Positions 862-37,950 of a DNA stretch of 64,000 nucleotides are shown here, piece by piece. A program made the translations under genes and the position numbers. The DNA is from Lactobacillus sp. CBA3606 (GTDB lineage: Bacteria; Bacillota; Bacilli; Lactobacillales; Lactobacillaceae). The notes below the pieces were generated by a model. It was not told where the DNA came from, did not search any database, and was given only the letters and a program-made list of their open reading frames with translations. Position 1 is the first letter of the stretch. Every line of letters starts with the position of its first letter. The stretch is taken from the NCBI RefSeq assembly GCF_002970935.1, contig NZ_CP027194.1, positions 186,001 through 250,000 on the forward strand. The letters run 5' to 3'.

Positions 862-890
862 TTGACTTTGTAAAATGAGAATGATTTAAT
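862..890 (+). promoter_or_regulatory. Promoter of the aromatic amino acid operon
   Basis: TTGACT (862-867), a 17-bp spacer and TTTAAT (885-890) give a good housekeeping promoter. Transcription would start near 897, about 28 nt ahead of the leader peptide start. Confidence 0.75.
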
Positions 891-924
891 GTAAACAACA
901 ACAAAACGGAAAGGATCGATCGCA

Positions 925-981
925 ATGACGAAACTATTACCAACTAATGCTTATTATTTTGGCTTTTATTACTTTAGGTAG
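925..981 (+). CDS. Tyr/Phe-rich attenuator leader peptide (18 aa)
   Basis: ATG at 925 follows a GGAAAGGA ribosome binding site at about 908-915 and opens an 18-codon frame, MTKLLPTNAYYFGFYYFR, ending at TAG 979-981. Residues 10-17 hold four Tyr and three Phe. The frame sits between a strong promoter and a chain of alternative hairpins ending in a terminator just before the aromatic biosynthesis genes. This is the classic layout of a leader peptide that senses charged tRNA-Tyr and tRNA-Phe through ribosome stalling. The function is inferred from composition and position. Confidence 0.8.
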   Translation: MTKLLPTNAYYFGFYYFR

Positions 982-1157
982 CGTTCGTATTGGTTCCTTA
1001 GATACGAACGTCACGCACGTTCGTGTCTAAGGTTAGCGAAGTCAGATTTGTCTTGGCCAGCTAGACACGGGAAGTCTAGCTGGTAATAATAGTCACTTGC
1101 ATCGTTTTTGATGAGGTGTCGCCTGCTAGATTTCTAAAATCTAGCAGGCTTTTTTTA
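982..1157 (+). promoter_or_regulatory. Multi-hairpin transcription attenuator of the aro operon
   Basis: Four hairpins can be drawn. A is 982-990 with 1002-1010. B is 996-1010 with 1018-1032, sharing its 5' arm with A. C is 1057-1066 with 1074-1083. D is the terminator, 1121-1131 with 1139-1149 plus a T run. The 3' arm of B (1023-1029) can instead pair with the 5' arm of C (1062-1068), and the 3' arm of C (1074-1083) can pair with the 5' arm of D (1122-1131) as an antiterminator. A ribosome at the leader stop masks the 5' arm of A, so B, C and D form. A ribosome stalled at the first Tyr codons leaves A free, which favours the antiterminator. Confidence 0.75.
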
Positions 1158-1187
1158 TATTGTTGGACCTTTGAAGGAGGAAATGCT

Positions 1188-2657
1188 ATGACTAAGCGCC
1201 ATCGTAAAACGTTATCACTAAGCTTGTATTTAAATTACTTTGTCCACGGGTTGGGATTGATTATTTTAACGCAGAATATGCAAGCACTGAGCCATCATTG
1301 GCAAACCCCAATCGAAACGGTTTCTTATGTTATTTCAGGAATTGGGATTGGTCGGTTATTAGCTTATTTCATATTTGGGCAATTATCTGATCGATACGGT
1401 CGCAAAGTTTTCGTTAATTTAGGGATGTTAAGTTATTTTATCTTTTTCTTAGGAATGGCCTTTGTGCGCGATAGTCAAGTGGCCTATGGCTTAGCGATAT
1501 TGGCTGGGATTGCTAATTCGGCCCTTGATGCCGGTACTTATCCGACCTTCATGGAATTGAATGGCAATCAAGGTGCATCCAATGTGTTGTTAAAAGCATT
1601 CATGTCGGCCGGTGAATTTTTATTACCGCTGTTGATTGCGTCATTGGAAACGGCTCATTTATGGTATGGCTGGTCTTTCATGGTTGCCGCATTTATTTTG
1701 AGCCTTAATTTTTGGCAGTTAAATCGACAAAAATTTCCGCCAAAGAATCAAGCCTCAGCAGCAGTCGTTAAGACTAGTGCACCGTTATCAAGATTACGCC
1801 GTTGGCTAGCAACTATCGGTTTAGCTGGCTATGGTTACACCTCGATGGCATTAATGATTTTATATACGCAATGGATTAGCTTGTTTGTGACTCGTGAACT
1901 GAACTATTCGTCAATTACCGCGCACTTATTGTTGTCGCTTTATAGTATTGGGTCAATCAGTGGGGTTGTGCTCATCTTTATGAGTTTACGTTGGGGTGTC
2001 GCTGAAACAAAGCTATTGATTGGCTTGAATCTCGGCGCATTCAGCGCATTATTGGTGGTTTGTTTCACTACTTGGCCGTGGTTATCAATGGTGGCAACGT
2101 TTATCTTTGGGTTTACAGCGGCTGGTGGTAGCATGCAAATCGGCTTAAATTTGTTGCTTAAATTATATCCACAAGCTAAAGGTCGTGTGATGGGGCTATT
2201 CTTTACGCTCGGTAGTGTTGCCTCTTTTACGATTCCGTTGATAACCGGGTGGCTTTCAAAACAGCACATTGGTCGTGCGATGCGGTTTGATTTAGTCATT
2301 AGTCTGGTCGGCGTGGGTTTGGTCTTACTCGCAATCTGGGCTTTAGGGCCACAGCAGTCACTAGTACAGCAACGTCACCGGATTAATCGAATTGACCACC
2401 ACTTGGTTAGTTTGTTGAACCAACGATTTGATGCTGTCACAACGATTGGCGGGTTAAAGCAACAGGCGCAGTTACCAGTATTGGATGCTAAACGCGAAGA
2501 TCAAGTGTTAGCCCGAATTGCCAAACAGAGTCGCTCAGCAGCACAAACGCCGTACTTACAAGCAATTTACCGAGAAATTATGCTGAATTCGCGTACGTAT
2601 CAACAAGTAGAACCTATTAAAATAATGAAGACTCAGGAGGACTTAACACATGATTGA
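1188..2657 (+). CDS. MFS transporter fused to AroQ-type chorismate mutase
   Basis: The 489-residue protein has about 390 residues of 12-helix major facilitator transporter, including the loop motif GQLSDRYGRK after helix 2. A C-terminal domain of about 80 residues (395-475) then reads as an AroQ chorismate mutase: RHRINRID, LLNQR, the Lys of GGLKQQ, PVLDAKRE and SRTYQ supply the usual active-site Arg, Arg, Lys, Asp, Arg/Glu and Gln positions. The mutase converts chorismate to prephenate, the branch point for Phe and Tyr. ATG 1188 follows GGAGG; the frame is open back to 1116 but that part lies inside the attenuator terminator. The stop overlaps aroC by 8 nt. The transported substrate is unknown; an aromatic amino acid or shikimate-type precursor is a guess from context. 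Confidence 0.8.
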   Translation: MTKRHRKTLSLSLYLNYFVHGLGLIILTQNMQALSHHWQTPIETVSYVISGIGIGRLLAYFIFGQLSDRYGRKVFVNLGMLSYFIFFLGMAFVRDSQVAYGLAILAGIANSALDAGTYPTFMELNGNQGASNVLLKAFMSAGEFLLPLLIASLETAHLWYGWSFMVAAFILSLNFWQLNRQKFPPKNQASAAVVKTSAPLSRLRRWLATIGLAGYGYTSMALMILYTQWISLFVTRELNYSSITAHLLLSLYSIGSISGVVLIFMSLRWGVAETKLLIGLNLGAFSALLVVCFTTWPWLSMVATFIFGFTAAGGSMQIGLNLLLKLYPQAKGRVMGLFFTLGSVASFTIPLITGWLSKQHIGRAMRFDLVISLVGVGLVLLAIWALGPQQSLVQQRHRINRIDHHLVSLLNQRFDAVTTIGGLKQQAQLPVLDAKREDQVLARIAKQSRSAAQTPYLQAIYREIMLNSRTYQQVEPIKIMKTQEDLTHD

Positions 2658-3816
2658 TTATATGACAGCTGGTGAATCTCATGGCCCACAATTAACAGGA
2701 ATTTTGACTGGCATACCTGCTGGTTTATCGATAGATGTTGATCAGATTAATGCTGGTCTAGAAGAACGACAAGGTGGTTTTGGGCGCGGCAATCGCCAAC
2801 AAATTGAACACGATATGGTGACGATTACTGGCGGATTGCGCCATGGGGTCACGCTAGGGTCACCGTTGGCCTTAGTCATCCAGAATCGTGATCACGCCCA
2901 TTGGCACGAAATTATGAATCCGATTAGTCCAGCGACTAATGATAATACGTTGCGGCGAGTAACCCGACCACGACCAGGGCATGCGGACTTGGTCGGCGGG
3001 ATGAAATATGGTCATCGTGATTTGCGCAACGTGTTGGAGCGATCATCCGCGCGCGAAACGGCGATGCGGGTTGCTATTGGTCAAATTTGTAAACAGCTAC
3101 TAGGTCAATTAGGCATTGAACTCGTCGGCTATGTTCAACAAATTGGGCCAATTATGACAACTAGCCAGTCCTTATCGGTTGCCGAATTAACAAAGCAGAT
3201 TAAGAAAAATGATTTACGGTTGGTCGATCAAACTAAGGTTGCGGCCAGTCATGACTTGATTACAGCGACTAAAAAAGCTGGTGATACGTTAGGTGGTGTG
3301 ATTCGGGTGGTCGCAACGAATGTGCCAGCTGGATTAGGGAGTTATGCAACTTGGAATACAAAGTTAGATGGTCAATTAGCGGCGGCGGTCATGGGCGTCA
3401 ATGCAATCAAGGGCGTTGAAATTGGTGATGGCTTTATAGCCGCTGACCAGTATGGTAGTCAAGTCATGGATGCCATTGACTGGCAGGCTGATACCGGCTG
3501 GTCACGGTTGACGAACCATCTTGGCGGTTTTGAAGGTGGCATGACTAATGGGATGCCGATTGTTATTAAGGCGGCCATGAAACCAATCCCAACGTTATAT
3601 CGACCACTGCAAAGTGTAGATATTCAAACCAAAGTGGTTAAAAAAGCGAGTGTAGAACGTTCCGATACGACGGCCATCGTGCCAGCCGCCGTGGTTGTTG
3701 AAAGTGTCGTCGCCATTGAATTAGTGCGGGTGTTAACAGCCACTTTTGATGGTAGTAACTTAACGCGGTTACAGCAGATGCTCCAAAACTATCGGGCTGA
3801 ATTGCAGGCCTATTAG
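2650..3816 (+). CDS. aroC: Chorismate synthase
   Basis: This 388-residue protein makes chorismate from 5-enolpyruvylshikimate-3-phosphate using reduced FMN, the last shikimate pathway step. Family signatures are GESHGPQLTGILTGIPAG at the N terminus, RPGHADLVGGMKYGHRD near residue 110 and RSSARETA-type sequence just after it. Length is normal for the family. The start lies inside the end of the preceding gene and follows AGGAGG, which suggests translational coupling within the operon. Confidence 0.97.
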   Translation: MIDYMTAGESHGPQLTGILTGIPAGLSIDVDQINAGLEERQGGFGRGNRQQIEHDMVTITGGLRHGVTLGSPLALVIQNRDHAHWHEIMNPISPATNDNTLRRVTRPRPGHADLVGGMKYGHRDLRNVLERSSARETAMRVAIGQICKQLLGQLGIELVGYVQQIGPIMTTSQSLSVAELTKQIKKNDLRLVDQTKVAASHDLITATKKAGDTLGGVIRVVATNVPAGLGSYATWNTKLDGQLAAAVMGVNAIKGVEIGDGFIAADQYGSQVMDAIDWQADTGWSRLTNHLGGFEGGMTNGMPIVIKAAMKPIPTLYRPLQSVDIQTKVVKKASVERSDTTAIVPAAVVVESVVAIELVRVLTATFDGSNLTRLQQMLQNYRAELQAY

Positions 3817-3818
3817 CG

Positions 3819-4346
3819 ATGCGGATTCAAACTTTGGGTCCGCAAGCTACCGATAGTTATGCTGCTGCTGAACAATATAATCAACAACACTTTCAAGGAC
3901 GCGCCGAAATCCAAGGTCAATCAAGTTTTGAAGCTATATTAAGGCATTTGGACCGCGATACAGGTGATTATTTAATTATGCCAGCCGCCTTTAAATCGAC
4001 TAGTTTAGATGCAAGTTGGGGCGACATTCATTATGCATTGTCAGCACAAATGACGTTGGTAGATTGTTTCATAACACAGCTTGACCCGTTAGTGGTCGTT
4101 CAGCGCATAACGGCTAAAAATCGGTTGGGCTATACTCATGCCGCTACTGCTCAGCTATTACAACGGACGGTGAACATGGTGACAGTCCAAACGGCGCCTA
4201 GCAAAGTCGTTGCTTATCAGTTATACGTTAAAAATCAAGCCGCTTACGTGTTGACTAATCTAAAAAATGTGACGCTGACGTCAACCGAACAGATTATCAA
4301 ACAATTGACACCAGCGATGGTGTGGTGTGTTTATCAAATCAATTAA
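3819..4346 (+). CDS. Prephenate dehydratase-like protein, short and divergent
   Basis: The 175-residue protein starts MRIQTLGPQATDSYAAAEQY, which resembles the first strand and loop of prephenate dehydratase (GP-G-T-S--AA) and of the related BacA decarboxylase. It lies 2 nt after aroC and ahead of aroA. It is much shorter than a normal PheA: it lacks the C-terminal ACT domain, and I cannot find the Thr-Arg-Phe catalytic motif or the usual ENS-EG motif. Reading it as the Phe-branch enzyme rests mainly on operon position and the N-terminal match. A BacA-like prephenate decarboxylase or a non-catalytic relative is equally possible. Confidence 0.5.
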   Translation: MRIQTLGPQATDSYAAAEQYNQQHFQGRAEIQGQSSFEAILRHLDRDTGDYLIMPAAFKSTSLDASWGDIHYALSAQMTLVDCFITQLDPLVVVQRITAKNRLGYTHAATAQLLQRTVNMVTVQTAPSKVVAYQLYVKNQAAYVLTNLKNVTLTSTEQIIKQLTPAMVWCVYQIN

Positions 4347-4357
4347 GGAAGTTTACG

Positions 4358-5668
4358 ATGATGAAAAAATTAATGACGAGTCCACAAAATGGATTACAGG
4401 GGACGCTTACTGTGCCAGGGGATAAAAGTATCTCACATCGCAGTTTGATTTTAGGCGCAATTAGTCATGGCGTGACGCACATTGATCACTTTTTAGTCGC
4501 CGATGACTGCCTCACAACTTTAACCGCGTTACAAGCCTTGGGGGTAGTCATCGAACGGGCAGGGACTACGGTCAAGGTTGATGGGGTTGGCTTAGCTGGG
4601 CTACATCCGGCGGTTGGGGCGCTACAAATGGGAAATGCCGGGACAGCCACCCGTTTAATGGCTGGACTATTAGCTGGTCAGCCATTTGATAGTACCTTAG
4701 TTGGTGATGCATCGTTGAGTCGCCGGCCAATGGAACGGGTTCGGCAACCCTTAGCAACGATGGGGGCACAAGTAACGTTGACTGCCGGGGCGTTACCGAT
4801 GCATATTCATGGACAGCCCCTAAAACCAGCTAATTATGCCCTAACGGTCGCCAGTGCGCAAGTCAAAAGTGCCTTAATATTGGCGGCATTACAGGCATCT
4901 GGGCCAAGTACGATCATTGAAAAACAACCCACTAGAGATCATACCGAACGCTTATTAAAGCTATTTGGTGGTGATATTACGACTGCCGCCGATCAACGGA
5001 CCATTACCGTACAACCACAGCCAAATTTACAAGGTCAGCATGTCATCGTGCCAGGAGATCTGTCATCAGCGGCCTTTTTCTTAACAGCCGCAAGTATTGT
5101 ACCCAAGTCACACCTGTTGCTACGACACGTGGGGCTTAATCCTACGCGAACGGGACTGTTAAACGTATTACAGCGCATGGGTGGAAACGTGAAAGTGACA
5201 CAATTAGTCAGTGACGGTGAGCCGGTCGGTAATATTGAAGTGATGGCAAGTTCATTGCGACCGATTAAGTTAACGGCTAGCGAAATTCCCGCAGTGATTG
5301 ACGAATTACCGTTAGTGGCATTATTGGCCGCTACGGCGGATGGTGTGAGCACCATTAGTGGCGCTGCCGAATTACGGGTTAAGGAAACGGATCGGATCAA
5401 GGCAATCGTGACTGAATTTCGGCAATTGGGTATTGCAATTACCGAACGTCCCGATGGCTTTACGATTGATGGTCGGCAAGCGTGGCACGTCAAATCACCG
5501 ATCCTTACTAGCCATGGTGATCATCGCATTGGAATGATGTTGGCGATTGCTGCTTTGCGGATCAACACCCCATTACAATTGGCAGGGGCGACTGCGATAA
5601 ATATCTCATACCCCACCTTTTTTAGCGATTTGCAACAATTGTTATCAAGAAAGGAGCGCCTTAAATGA
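4358..5668 (+). CDS. aroA: 5-enolpyruvylshikimate-3-phosphate synthase
   Basis: This 436-residue enzyme joins phosphoenolpyruvate to shikimate-3-phosphate. Signatures are TVPGDKSISHRS near the N terminus, GNAGTATRLMAG, DASLSRRPMERV and, near the C terminus, LRVKETDRI and HGDHRIGMM. ATG 4358 is chosen because AAGGAAG ends 6 nt before it; an in-frame GTG at 4322 lies inside the previous gene and has no such site. The stop overlaps tyrA by 4 nt. Confidence 0.97.
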   Translation: MMKKLMTSPQNGLQGTLTVPGDKSISHRSLILGAISHGVTHIDHFLVADDCLTTLTALQALGVVIERAGTTVKVDGVGLAGLHPAVGALQMGNAGTATRLMAGLLAGQPFDSTLVGDASLSRRPMERVRQPLATMGAQVTLTAGALPMHIHGQPLKPANYALTVASAQVKSALILAALQASGPSTIIEKQPTRDHTERLLKLFGGDITTAADQRTITVQPQPNLQGQHVIVPGDLSSAAFFLTAASIVPKSHLLLRHVGLNPTRTGLLNVLQRMGGNVKVTQLVSDGEPVGNIEVMASSLRPIKLTASEIPAVIDELPLVALLAATADGVSTISGAAELRVKETDRIKAIVTEFRQLGIAITERPDGFTIDGRQAWHVKSPILTSHGDHRIGMMLAIAALRINTPLQLAGATAINISYPTFFSDLQQLLSRKERLK

Positions 5669-6762
5669 CTCAGGTTTTAATTAATGGACTCGGCCTGATT
5701 GGTGGGTCATTGGCGTTAGCCATTCGACAAGCACATGCTGATGTGTGGCTTATGGGGAGTGATCGGCAAGCTAGCTGTTTGATGTACGCTAAACAACACC
5801 GAATTATTGATGAAGTTGTCACTGACTTTGCAACTGCCGCCATCAAAGCGGATGTGATTATTTTAGCGGGACCGGTTTCAGTGATTCGGGCTGACTTAAG
5901 TCTCTTAGCAACCTTAGCCTTGAAACCACAAGTGTTAGTAACTGATGTTGGAAGTACCAAACAAACGATTATCGCAGCGGCGCAACCTTTACAGGCACGT
6001 GGTATTAGTTTTATCGGTGGTCATCCAATGGCTGGTTCACAGCGAACTGGTGTGGCTGCAGGCCGTGCGGATTTATTTGAAAATGCCTTTTACTTTTTAG
6101 TACCGGGACTCACGCCGCCCTCAGCAATGACGCAGTTAAAAAAGTTACTTAGGGCAACTAAAGTTAAATGGTTACCAGTAACGCCACTGCAACATGATCG
6201 TTTGGTGGGCCAGCTGAGTCATCTTCCACATGTGGTCGCGGCCACTTTAGTTAATCAGACGCACACGGCTTTGGCCGATTCGCCAATGGGGTTACGGTTA
6301 GCGGCTGGTGGGTTTAAGAGCTTAACCCGGATTGCTTCAGCTGACCCGGCGATGTGGACGGCAATTTTATTGAATAACACTGAACTGGTGTTGAGACAGT
6401 TAAGTCAGTTTAGCGGCGCATTGGCACAGATTGAACAGGCGATTCAGGGCCAGGATGCAGTAGCGATTGAGGCCTTCTTTACGCAAGCTAAGGTGACTCG
6501 TGACCAACTTGGGCCAGAACACCTGGGCCAGTTGCCTAATTTTTATGATTTGTTTTTAAATATTCCAGATCATCCTGGGGTTTTAGCAACGATTATGCAG
6601 CAATTGGCTCAAGCAAAGCTGAATTTAATTAATTGTCATATTTTAGAGGTGCGTGAAGAAATTGATGGGGTACTACAACTAACCTTTGGCACTGCCAAAA
6701 GTCAAGCACAAGCAGCAGGACTGTTAAAGGCCGCTGGCTATCAGATTGTGAGGAATCGTTAA
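5665..6762 (+). CDS. tyrA: Prephenate dehydrogenase with C-terminal ACT domain
   Basis: This 365-residue NAD-dependent enzyme turns prephenate into 4-hydroxyphenylpyruvate for tyrosine. The Rossmann fold opens with NGLGLIGGSLALAIR, and the substrate region contains GGHPMAGSQRTG. The last ~70 residues (FLNIPDHPGVLATIMQQLA onward) form an ACT domain, the usual site of tyrosine feedback. The start follows GAAAGGAG and overlaps the aroA stop, so the two are likely coupled. Confidence 0.95.
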   Translation: MTQVLINGLGLIGGSLALAIRQAHADVWLMGSDRQASCLMYAKQHRIIDEVVTDFATAAIKADVIILAGPVSVIRADLSLLATLALKPQVLVTDVGSTKQTIIAAAQPLQARGISFIGGHPMAGSQRTGVAAGRADLFENAFYFLVPGLTPPSAMTQLKKLLRATKVKWLPVTPLQHDRLVGQLSHLPHVVAATLVNQTHTALADSPMGLRLAAGGFKSLTRIASADPAMWTAILLNNTELVLRQLSQFSGALAQIEQAIQGQDAVAIEAFFTQAKVTRDQLGPEHLGQLPNFYDLFLNIPDHPGVLATIMQQLAQAKLNLINCHILEVREEIDGVLQLTFGTAKSQAQAAGLLKAAGYQIVRNR

Positions 6763-7289
6763 TGCAAGCAATTTTAATTGGATTCATGGGTAGTGGCAAA
6801 ACGACAGTTGGTCGATTATTAGCGCAGCAGTTACAGACGCAAGCTGTTGATTTGGACGATCTGATTGTCACACAAGTGGGTCAACCTATTACGCAAATCT
6901 TTAGTGAACAGGGCGAGACTGGGTTTCGGCACTTAGAACAAGCGACGTTATGTCAAGCGTTGACACAGCCGGGGGTCTTATCTACTGGTGGTGGCACACC
7001 CACTAGTCAAAAAAATGCTGAAATCTTGATGGCGAGTTCAATTCCAGTGATTTGGCTGGCGGCTGCAGATCAAACTATTTTGCAGCGACTTGCTAACAAT
7101 CGTGACCGACCGTTAGTTAACACCTTGGCATCAGCTGACTTGTTAGCGTTGAAGCATCGACGGGCTAGTATATATGAGGGCACAGCTGATTTAATTGTGT
7201 CGACGGATGCGTTGACTCCGCTAGCAATCGCGACGCAAATTGTGACTTGGCTGATGCGGCGGACGATGCCAGTTGAATTGAGTCGTTAA
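6762..7289 (+). CDS. aroK: Shikimate kinase
   Basis: This 175-residue kinase phosphorylates shikimate using ATP. It shows the Walker A motif GFMGSGKTTVG, the DLDD shikimate-binding motif and GGGTPTS, all in family order. Its ATG shares a base with the tyrA stop (TAATG). It is the last gene of the aromatic operon; the next gene has its own promoter region. Confidence 0.96.
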   Translation: MQAILIGFMGSGKTTVGRLLAQQLQTQAVDLDDLIVTQVGQPITQIFSEQGETGFRHLEQATLCQALTQPGVLSTGGGTPTSQKNAEILMASSIPVIWLAAADQTILQRLANNRDRPLVNTLASADLLALKHRRASIYEGTADLIVSTDALTPLAIATQIVTWLMRRTMPVELSR

Positions 7290-37676: not shown

Positions 37677-37950
37677 AAAAAACGGTAACCGCGTCGCAAA
37701 AGGACGAAGTTACCGTTCGTGGTACCACCTTAATTCATCAATATCTCATGATATTGATCTTATCCCGTACATATCATACGGTAGCGGGGTAACAGTGGCT
37801 GGCTGTCATCACTTGGCAAAAAGCTCAGTGGTGCCGTTTAGAGGCCATTTTCGTTGCATCGTTGCCTGGCTTGTTTTGCACTAATCCAAGCTCACTGTTC
37901 AGGACGACGCAATTACTTTCCTCATCAAAACGTTGTTATTTTTAGGTTGC
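37677..37950 (-). promoter_or_regulatory. T-box riboswitch of metE (Met specifier)
   Basis: On the minus strand the leader has the T-box sequence AAGGTGGTACCACG (37731-37718), a stem I region and a terminator (AACGGTAAC.../GGTTACCGTT plus T7). The putative specifier is ATG at 37848-37846 in the context GAAAATGG. It should let uncharged tRNA-Met switch on metE and the downstream fusion. Confidence 0.92.

Follow-up and report, generated by a model that had tools for sequence, protein, structure and literature searches.

A ribosome-mediated attenuator with Tyr/Phe regulatory codons is proposed for an aromatic amino acid operon of Lactobacillus sp. CBA3606, within a probable codon-swapping family of Lactobacillales leaders

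The control of amino acid genes in Lactobacillales is usually credited to T-boxes. The locus described here raises the question of whether a translated leader peptide governs an aromatic amino acid operon in Lactobacillus sp. CBA3606 and how widely such a device is used in the order. We analyzed a 64-kb stretch of this genome (contig NZ_CP027194.1, positions 186,001 to 250,000; hereafter, the window), in which the block consisting of promoter, leader and operon lies downstream of an rRNA pseudouridine synthase gene (Table 1). With a probability that we put at about 0.88, the leader is a ribosome-mediated transcription attenuator that senses charged Tyr and Phe tRNAs and belongs to a homologous family whose members exchange their regulatory codons.

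Table 1. Features of the leader and the operon in the window
Feature	Position	Strand	Partner or basis
Promoter: TTGACT (862-867), 17-nt spacer, extended -10 TGa TTTAAT (882-890)	862..890	+	direct reading
Shine-Dalgarno sequence of leader ORF, GGAAAGGA	908..915	+	direct reading; kept in relatives
Leader peptide ORF, MTKLLPTNAYYFGFYYFR, then stop	925..981	+	ORF list; relatives
Regulatory codons Tyr-Tyr-Phe-Gly-Phe-Tyr-Tyr-Phe	952..975	+	
Arm P, TTTGGCTTT	958..966	+	within leader ORF; partner Q
Arm A	982..990	+	partner B; begins directly 3' of stop codon, within footprint of stop-codon ribosome
Arm B	996..1010	+	partner A or C
Arm C	1018..1032	+	partner B or D
Arm Q, GAAGTCAGA	1038..1046	+	between C and D; partner P
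Arm D	1057..1069	+	1062-1069 with C; 1057-1066 with E
Arm E	1074..1083	+	partner D or F (E:F, antiterminator)
Arm F	1121..1133	+	terminator 5' half, or partner of E
Arm G (1137-1149) and U-run (1150-1156)	1137..1156	+	F:G, intrinsic terminator
MFS transporter fused to C-terminal type II chorismate mutase, first gene	1188..2657	+	Pfam MFS_1 + CM_2
aroC, chorismate synthase	2650..3816	+	
Divergent prephenate-dehydratase (PDT)-like protein, 175 aa	3819..4346	+	weak match; no Pfam hit
aroA, EPSP synthase	4355..5668	+	
tyrA, prephenate dehydrogenase	5665..6762	+	
aroK, shikimate kinase	6762..7289	+	

The promoter is kept in relatives as TTGACA ... TGAGAATGTTTTAAT; it was absent from the list of a consensus promoter scanner because that scanner demands A at position 2 of the -10 element. 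The leader ORF ends, as an earlier note on this DNA had claimed, in an aromatic-rich tail, YYFGFYYF, with aromatic residues at seven of eight positions, and it is the sole short ORF on either strand of the 64 kb with at least six Phe or Tyr per eight residues. The only intrinsic terminator found within 700-1250 (1121-1149) consists of a 13-bp stem followed by TTTTTTT. It lies 31 nt before the start codon at 1188, the distance given in the same note; the gene that begins there, taken in the note for the first aro gene, is the MFS-chorismate mutase fusion, with the aro genes next. The 271-nt leader as a whole folds at -94.7 kcal/mol, compared to -60.8 +/- 4.9 for shuffled sequences (z = -7.0).

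The MFS-chorismate mutase fusion is kept across Lactobacillaceae and Sporolactobacillus, and in some genera the match ends before the mutase part. For the product of the third gene (3819-4346), no Pfam hit and no solved relative were found, and profile comparison with true PheA gave a weak match involving the N-terminal part. Because the PheA match is weak, the PDT-like identity rests on a weak NCBIfam match together with Phe-only leaders, behind which homologues of this protein (30-53% identical) stand alone in other genera, suggesting a divergent prephenate dehydratase that lacks an ACT domain.

The RNA of the leader can adopt two alternative chains of helices, namely, A:B, C:D and E:F (antitermination) or B:C, D:E and F:G (termination). 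By exact complementarity in the window, A:B spans 9 bp, B:C 15 bp, C:D 8 bp, D:E 10 bp and F:G 13 bp; E:F comprises 10 positions, 9 of them paired, with one mismatch. Per helix, the energies are about -9 to -11 kcal/mol in the antitermination chain and about -18 to -23 in the termination chain; in classical attenuators, a weaker earlier helix typically pre-empts a stronger later one. The chain of mutually exclusive pairings recognized previously is thus real, but had been described incompletely, as it involves seven arms, A to G, plus P and Q. The linker between C and D (1039-1054) can also form a small hairpin, AAGTCA-GATT-TGTCTT, in which the T-T mismatch is replaced by T-A in one relative (L007); this hairpin may genuinely belong to the antitermination state, or it may act as a pause signal. 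A possible second leader ORF (GTG near 1026, between C and D) was rejected, its frame being lost to indels in relatives, and the conservation of the linker is therefore at the RNA level, in arm Q and the small hairpin.

Comparison with relatives bore out the proposed leader, with the peptide and the arms kept across the genus and far beyond, and with both structures covarying. All same-genus relatives with the operon carry the leader, and the peptide core YY[YF]xF..F[R/K/S] is located directly before the stop codon in Lactobacillaceae genera and in Sporolactobacillus. The carriers include Lactiplantibacillus (among others, L. plantarum EGD-AQ4, L. fabifermentans and L. herbarum), Levi-, Bombi-, Secundi-, Liquori-, Loigo-, Lenti-, Pauci-, Lacticasei-, Limosi- and Ligilactobacillus, as well as Fructobacillus, Apilactobacillus, Holzapfeliella and Sporolactobacillus. 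Among 20 aligned leaders, 97.5% of the cells are paired in the termination state and 94.8% in the antitermination state; for 84 more diverse sequences, the corresponding values are 94.5% and 92.2%, with changes on both sides at 36 of the 37 termination pairs and 23 of the 27 antitermination pairs, compared to 26-45% pairing (n = 84) when the alignment was slid by 1-3 columns as a control. The alignment was fitted solely to the termination state, so that, shared arms apart, it does not favor the antitermination counts. Palindromic sequence also gave rise to echo hits on the strand opposite to the leader, such as window 1052-1207 (minus). These were left out of the P:Q, folding and order-wide 101-sequence counts; three of the 85 rows of alignment A5 are of this kind. 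Arm A pairs solely in A:B, and all nine A:B pairs covary; the C:D pair that lies outside D:E (columns 104/191) is C-G in 29 sequences, U-A in 27, U-G in 14 and another combination in 1. Across the order (n = 101), each of the six helices is 87-96% paired, and F:G is 94-96% paired across relatives. Nearly all of the 101 model hits retain an ORF that terminates where the model begins, and arm A directly follows the stop codon in nearly all members.

The pairing of P, which is embedded in the regulatory codons, with Q encloses B:C and crosses C:D, and P:Q and C:D are mutually exclusive. The two arms change together: the pairs are TTTAGC with GCTAAA before TrpX-type ABC genes, TTAGCA with TGCTAA and TCAGCA with TGCTGA in Ile/Leu/Val leaders, and TACGGTTTC with GAAACCGTA and TATAGCTTC with GAAGCTATA in Sporolactobacillus. 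The mean energy of P with its own Q was -11.35, compared to -8.20 (sd 0.26) after permutation and -9.53 (sd 0.25) after permutation within classes, and in both cases none of 20,000 permutations was as strong; the same test on an upstream control region revealed no effect. The P:Q pair of the window itself is weak (-8.6 kcal/mol), and 46 of 96 foreign Qs bind the window P better. Judged by their sequences, P and Q co-evolve, and the mid-peptide Gly/Ser codons are kept because arm P pairs with Q.

From these features, we infer how stalling and a kinetic order of folding would shape the response in vivo. When Tyr and Phe are plentiful, a ribosome at the stop codon would cover A, leading to B:C, D:E and F:G, and transcription would end. 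Under a shortage of charged Tyr- or Phe-tRNA, the ribosome would stall on codons 10-17, leaving A free and covering P; A:B, C:D and E:F would then form in order, G would be left alone, and transcription would continue. Without translation, P:Q could form, and transcription would end by default. Constrained folding of the window leader with D just emerged predicted a C:D probability of 0.02 without a ribosome, 0.29 and 0.54 with a ribosome stalled at Tyr10 and Phe12, respectively, and 0.00 when the ribosome occupied the stop codon. Over 94 leaders, the predicted means were 0.47 (stalled), 0.16 (none) and 0.06 (at stop), the last value being partly predetermined, since masking of A is assumed for that position; no such assumption underlies the difference between none and stalled, which arises from P:Q and other pairings of the ORF. 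C:D was predicted to be more probable with a stalled ribosome than with none in 70 of the 94 leaders, and than with a ribosome at the stop in 72; in about a quarter of the leaders, the shift is lacking. These predictions agree with the logic put forward in the earlier note, in which a stop-codon ribosome masks A and stalling at Tyr codons frees it; what the note missed is that the stalled ribosome would also cover P, blocking the P:Q pairing that opposes C:D. Equilibrium folding of the complete window leader yielded the terminator at every ribosome position and was rejected as a readout of antitermination; the decision of the switch must therefore be kinetic.

With covariance models, between a third and a half of the sampled Lactobacillales genomes were found to carry the element. 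Model R1 matched 139 of 301 Lactobacillaceae genomes, and model R2 matched 146 of 295 Lactobacillales genomes (about 100 at E<=1e-8); the tallies, taken at E<=1e-4, should be read as upper limits because matches weaker than about 1e-7 are unsafe, and the lower figure for Lactobacillales is the safe one given that weak hits include plain terminators. Two weak hits in the genome under study (L205 and L206; E of 4e-4 and 0.01) are ordinary terminators after other genes, and the weak R1 hits L191, L195 and L200-L203 in other families are not leaders. A few matches were obtained in Bacilli outside Lactobacillales, and none at E<=1e-6 in 248 further genomes drawn from the phylum. The earlier note had supposed that leader-peptide attenuation sensing both Tyr and Phe is unusual in Lactobacillales; as regards extent, this is wrong, since the element occurs widely in the order.

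The same RNA stands before genes for different amino acids, with peptide tails to match. Tyr/Phe(/Trp) peptides precede aro operons, and 56 aro leaders contain on average 3.8 Tyr and 1.9 Phe in the last 10 residues, compared to 0 Tyr and 3.8 Phe in the leaders of lone PDT-like genes. Genes were identified with NCBIfam and Pfam, and the TrpX and cystine assignments below are from matches under the curated cut-offs; two of the automatically picked peptides in the table of tails, those of L052 and L186, were read in an incorrect frame. Phe-only tails (FAFSFFFR, NFSFFR, FFFSDFR) are found before Lactobacillaceae TrpX-type ABC transporters, lone short PDT-like genes and a true pheA, and Phe/Tyr tails (FYFSYFR) before aroE-aroF operons, a DAHP synthase and the TrpX-type ABC transporters of other families in the order. 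The genes behind Ile/Leu/Val tails (IISIIR, LLISVIR) are ilvA (threonine ammonia-lyase), ilvB (acetolactate synthase), ilvE (branched-chain aminotransferase) and livJ (branched-chain ABC binding protein). Cys tails (CCCTCC) are found upstream of two kinds of gene, one for a cystine-type ABC binding protein and one for a dicarboxylate/cystine-type symporter; L162 and L152 are Cys-run leaders (CCCTCC, CCCTC) that share the RNA scaffold and lead into cystine-type uptake genes. Tyr-rich leaders (KYYRNYAYFA and KYYNSYAYL; L170 and L171) are located before genes of the NhaC-type Na+/H+ antiporter family, hinting that these antiporters handle tyrosine, and the Tyr/Phe leader VYFSYFR (L221) before the gene of a CitMHS-family transporter, next to which comes an aminotransferase-like gene. 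Probably, a single ancestral attenuator spread in Lactobacillales through swaps confined to the regulatory codons (Tyr/Phe/Trp, Phe, Tyr, Ile/Leu/Val, Cys) while keeping the RNA relay and the ORF-embedded arm that would turn transcription off when there is no translation.

Could the peptide itself, rather than its codons, be what is read? A TnaC-like nascent chain, together with free Tyr/Phe or another ligand, might stall the ribosome via the exit tunnel, making codon decoding secondary. Such arrest would feed the same RNA arms, and residues outside the regulatory set are indeed kept (the mid Gly/Ser and the Arg before the stop), but the kept middle codons (GGC/AGC) are part of arm P and vary in step with Q, which explains them at the RNA level. 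The same RNA also carries tails as unrelated as IISIIR, CCCTCCMI and FSFFFR, and biosynthetic genes better fit release at the stop, making arrest of this type unlikely. Somewhat less probable still is a terminator/antiterminator controlled by a metabolite or protein, that is, a riboswitch or a target of an RNA-binding protein, with the ORF incidental or a mere tuner. In its favor are long kept stretches such as CGTGTCTA and CAGCTAGACAC and the small hairpin between C and D; however, the kept stretches are explained by their double pairing duties, neither an Rfam aptamer nor a T-box was detected in the leaders, the codons match the amino acid under control, and arm A directly follows the stop codon in nearly all members.

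We consider it very improbable that the short ORF encodes a functional microprotein and that the hairpins are an unrelated terminator array: the N-terminal halves of the peptides vary freely, six alternating helices covary, and the tail, although kept over long distances as this explanation would have it, follows the downstream gene in composition. Ribosome-mediated attenuation governed by the codons accordingly remains the favored reading.

The attenuators of the E. coli and Salmonella trp, pheA and his operons combine a leader ORF of regulatory codons, mutually exclusive hairpins, an intrinsic terminator and a logic of stalling versus completion. The present leader resembles them in its codon-rich ORF, exclusive hairpins, terminator and presumed stall/completion logic, and all the sequence and structure features of ribosome-mediated attenuators that we checked were found, namely, an ORF with a Shine-Dalgarno sequence, a codon cluster, a terminator and an exclusive antiterminator. 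Unlike those attenuators, it has seven arms, a three-step relay and the ORF-embedded arm P, and it is the ribosome at the stop codon that would mask the first arm and the stalled one that would free it. At gathering score, none of the Rfam leader families (Phe_leader, Trp_leader, His_leader and others) was detected in the window leader or 32 related loci. The T-box model (RF00230) gave no hit at 850-1250 even at E<=1, and in the same scan of the window found a true T-box (96.9 bits) at 37697-37937 (-), which precedes metE and a homocysteine methyltransferase/methylenetetrahydrofolate reductase-like gene; thus, the same genome uses T-boxes for methionine. Like T-boxes, the family applies one RNA architecture to many amino acids in Firmicutes amino acid genes through a codon-like element; T-boxes swap the specifier codon, whereas here the swapped elements are regulatory codons, and specificity lies in the translated codons of a leader peptide.

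Among Bacillota, His leader-peptide attenuators have been reported in bacilli, with his-related genes of lactobacilli/Lactobacillales assigned to T-boxes (PMC2965389, PMC9413887), and branched-chain amino acid leaders have been reported for Listeria (Rli60; PMC5864092) and for S. aureus, L. lactis and Streptococcus (review PMC6123439). These leaders likewise combine a regulatory-codon peptide with a terminator before amino acid genes and were described for one amino acid group each; those of L. lactis and Streptococcus could be homologous to the present family. The uORFC-13-1 motif upstream of aroF, a candidate Phe-codon uORF before a terminator and a shikimate gene, was reported as a separate motif from another genome set, in a paper whose main text makes no mention of lactobacilli (PMC8632094). 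The open literature that we searched contained no Tyr/Phe, Phe or Cys leaders from Lactobacillales, although the survey of Lopatovskaya et al. 2010, seen here through its citation in PMC4833913, may list some; neither that literature nor Rfam contained a homologous multi-amino-acid attenuator family. The mechanism is classical ribosome-mediated attenuation, and the new part is the homologous codon-swapping family.

Such a family would constitute a second, similarly modular RNA system beside T-boxes, including in Lactiplantibacillus plantarum (EGD-AQ4), a species in wide food and probiotic use. Because the peptide spells out the amino acid, the leader annotates the genes downstream, as with the short PDT-like proteins behind Phe-only leaders or the Lactiplantibacillus TrpX-type ABC transporter, which stands behind a Phe-only, not a Trp, leader. 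If our reading is correct, this homologous multi-specificity attenuator family would provide a route to the substrates of uncharacterized transporters and enzymes, as well as a natural series of homologous attenuators for studying the co-evolution of codons and RNA arms.
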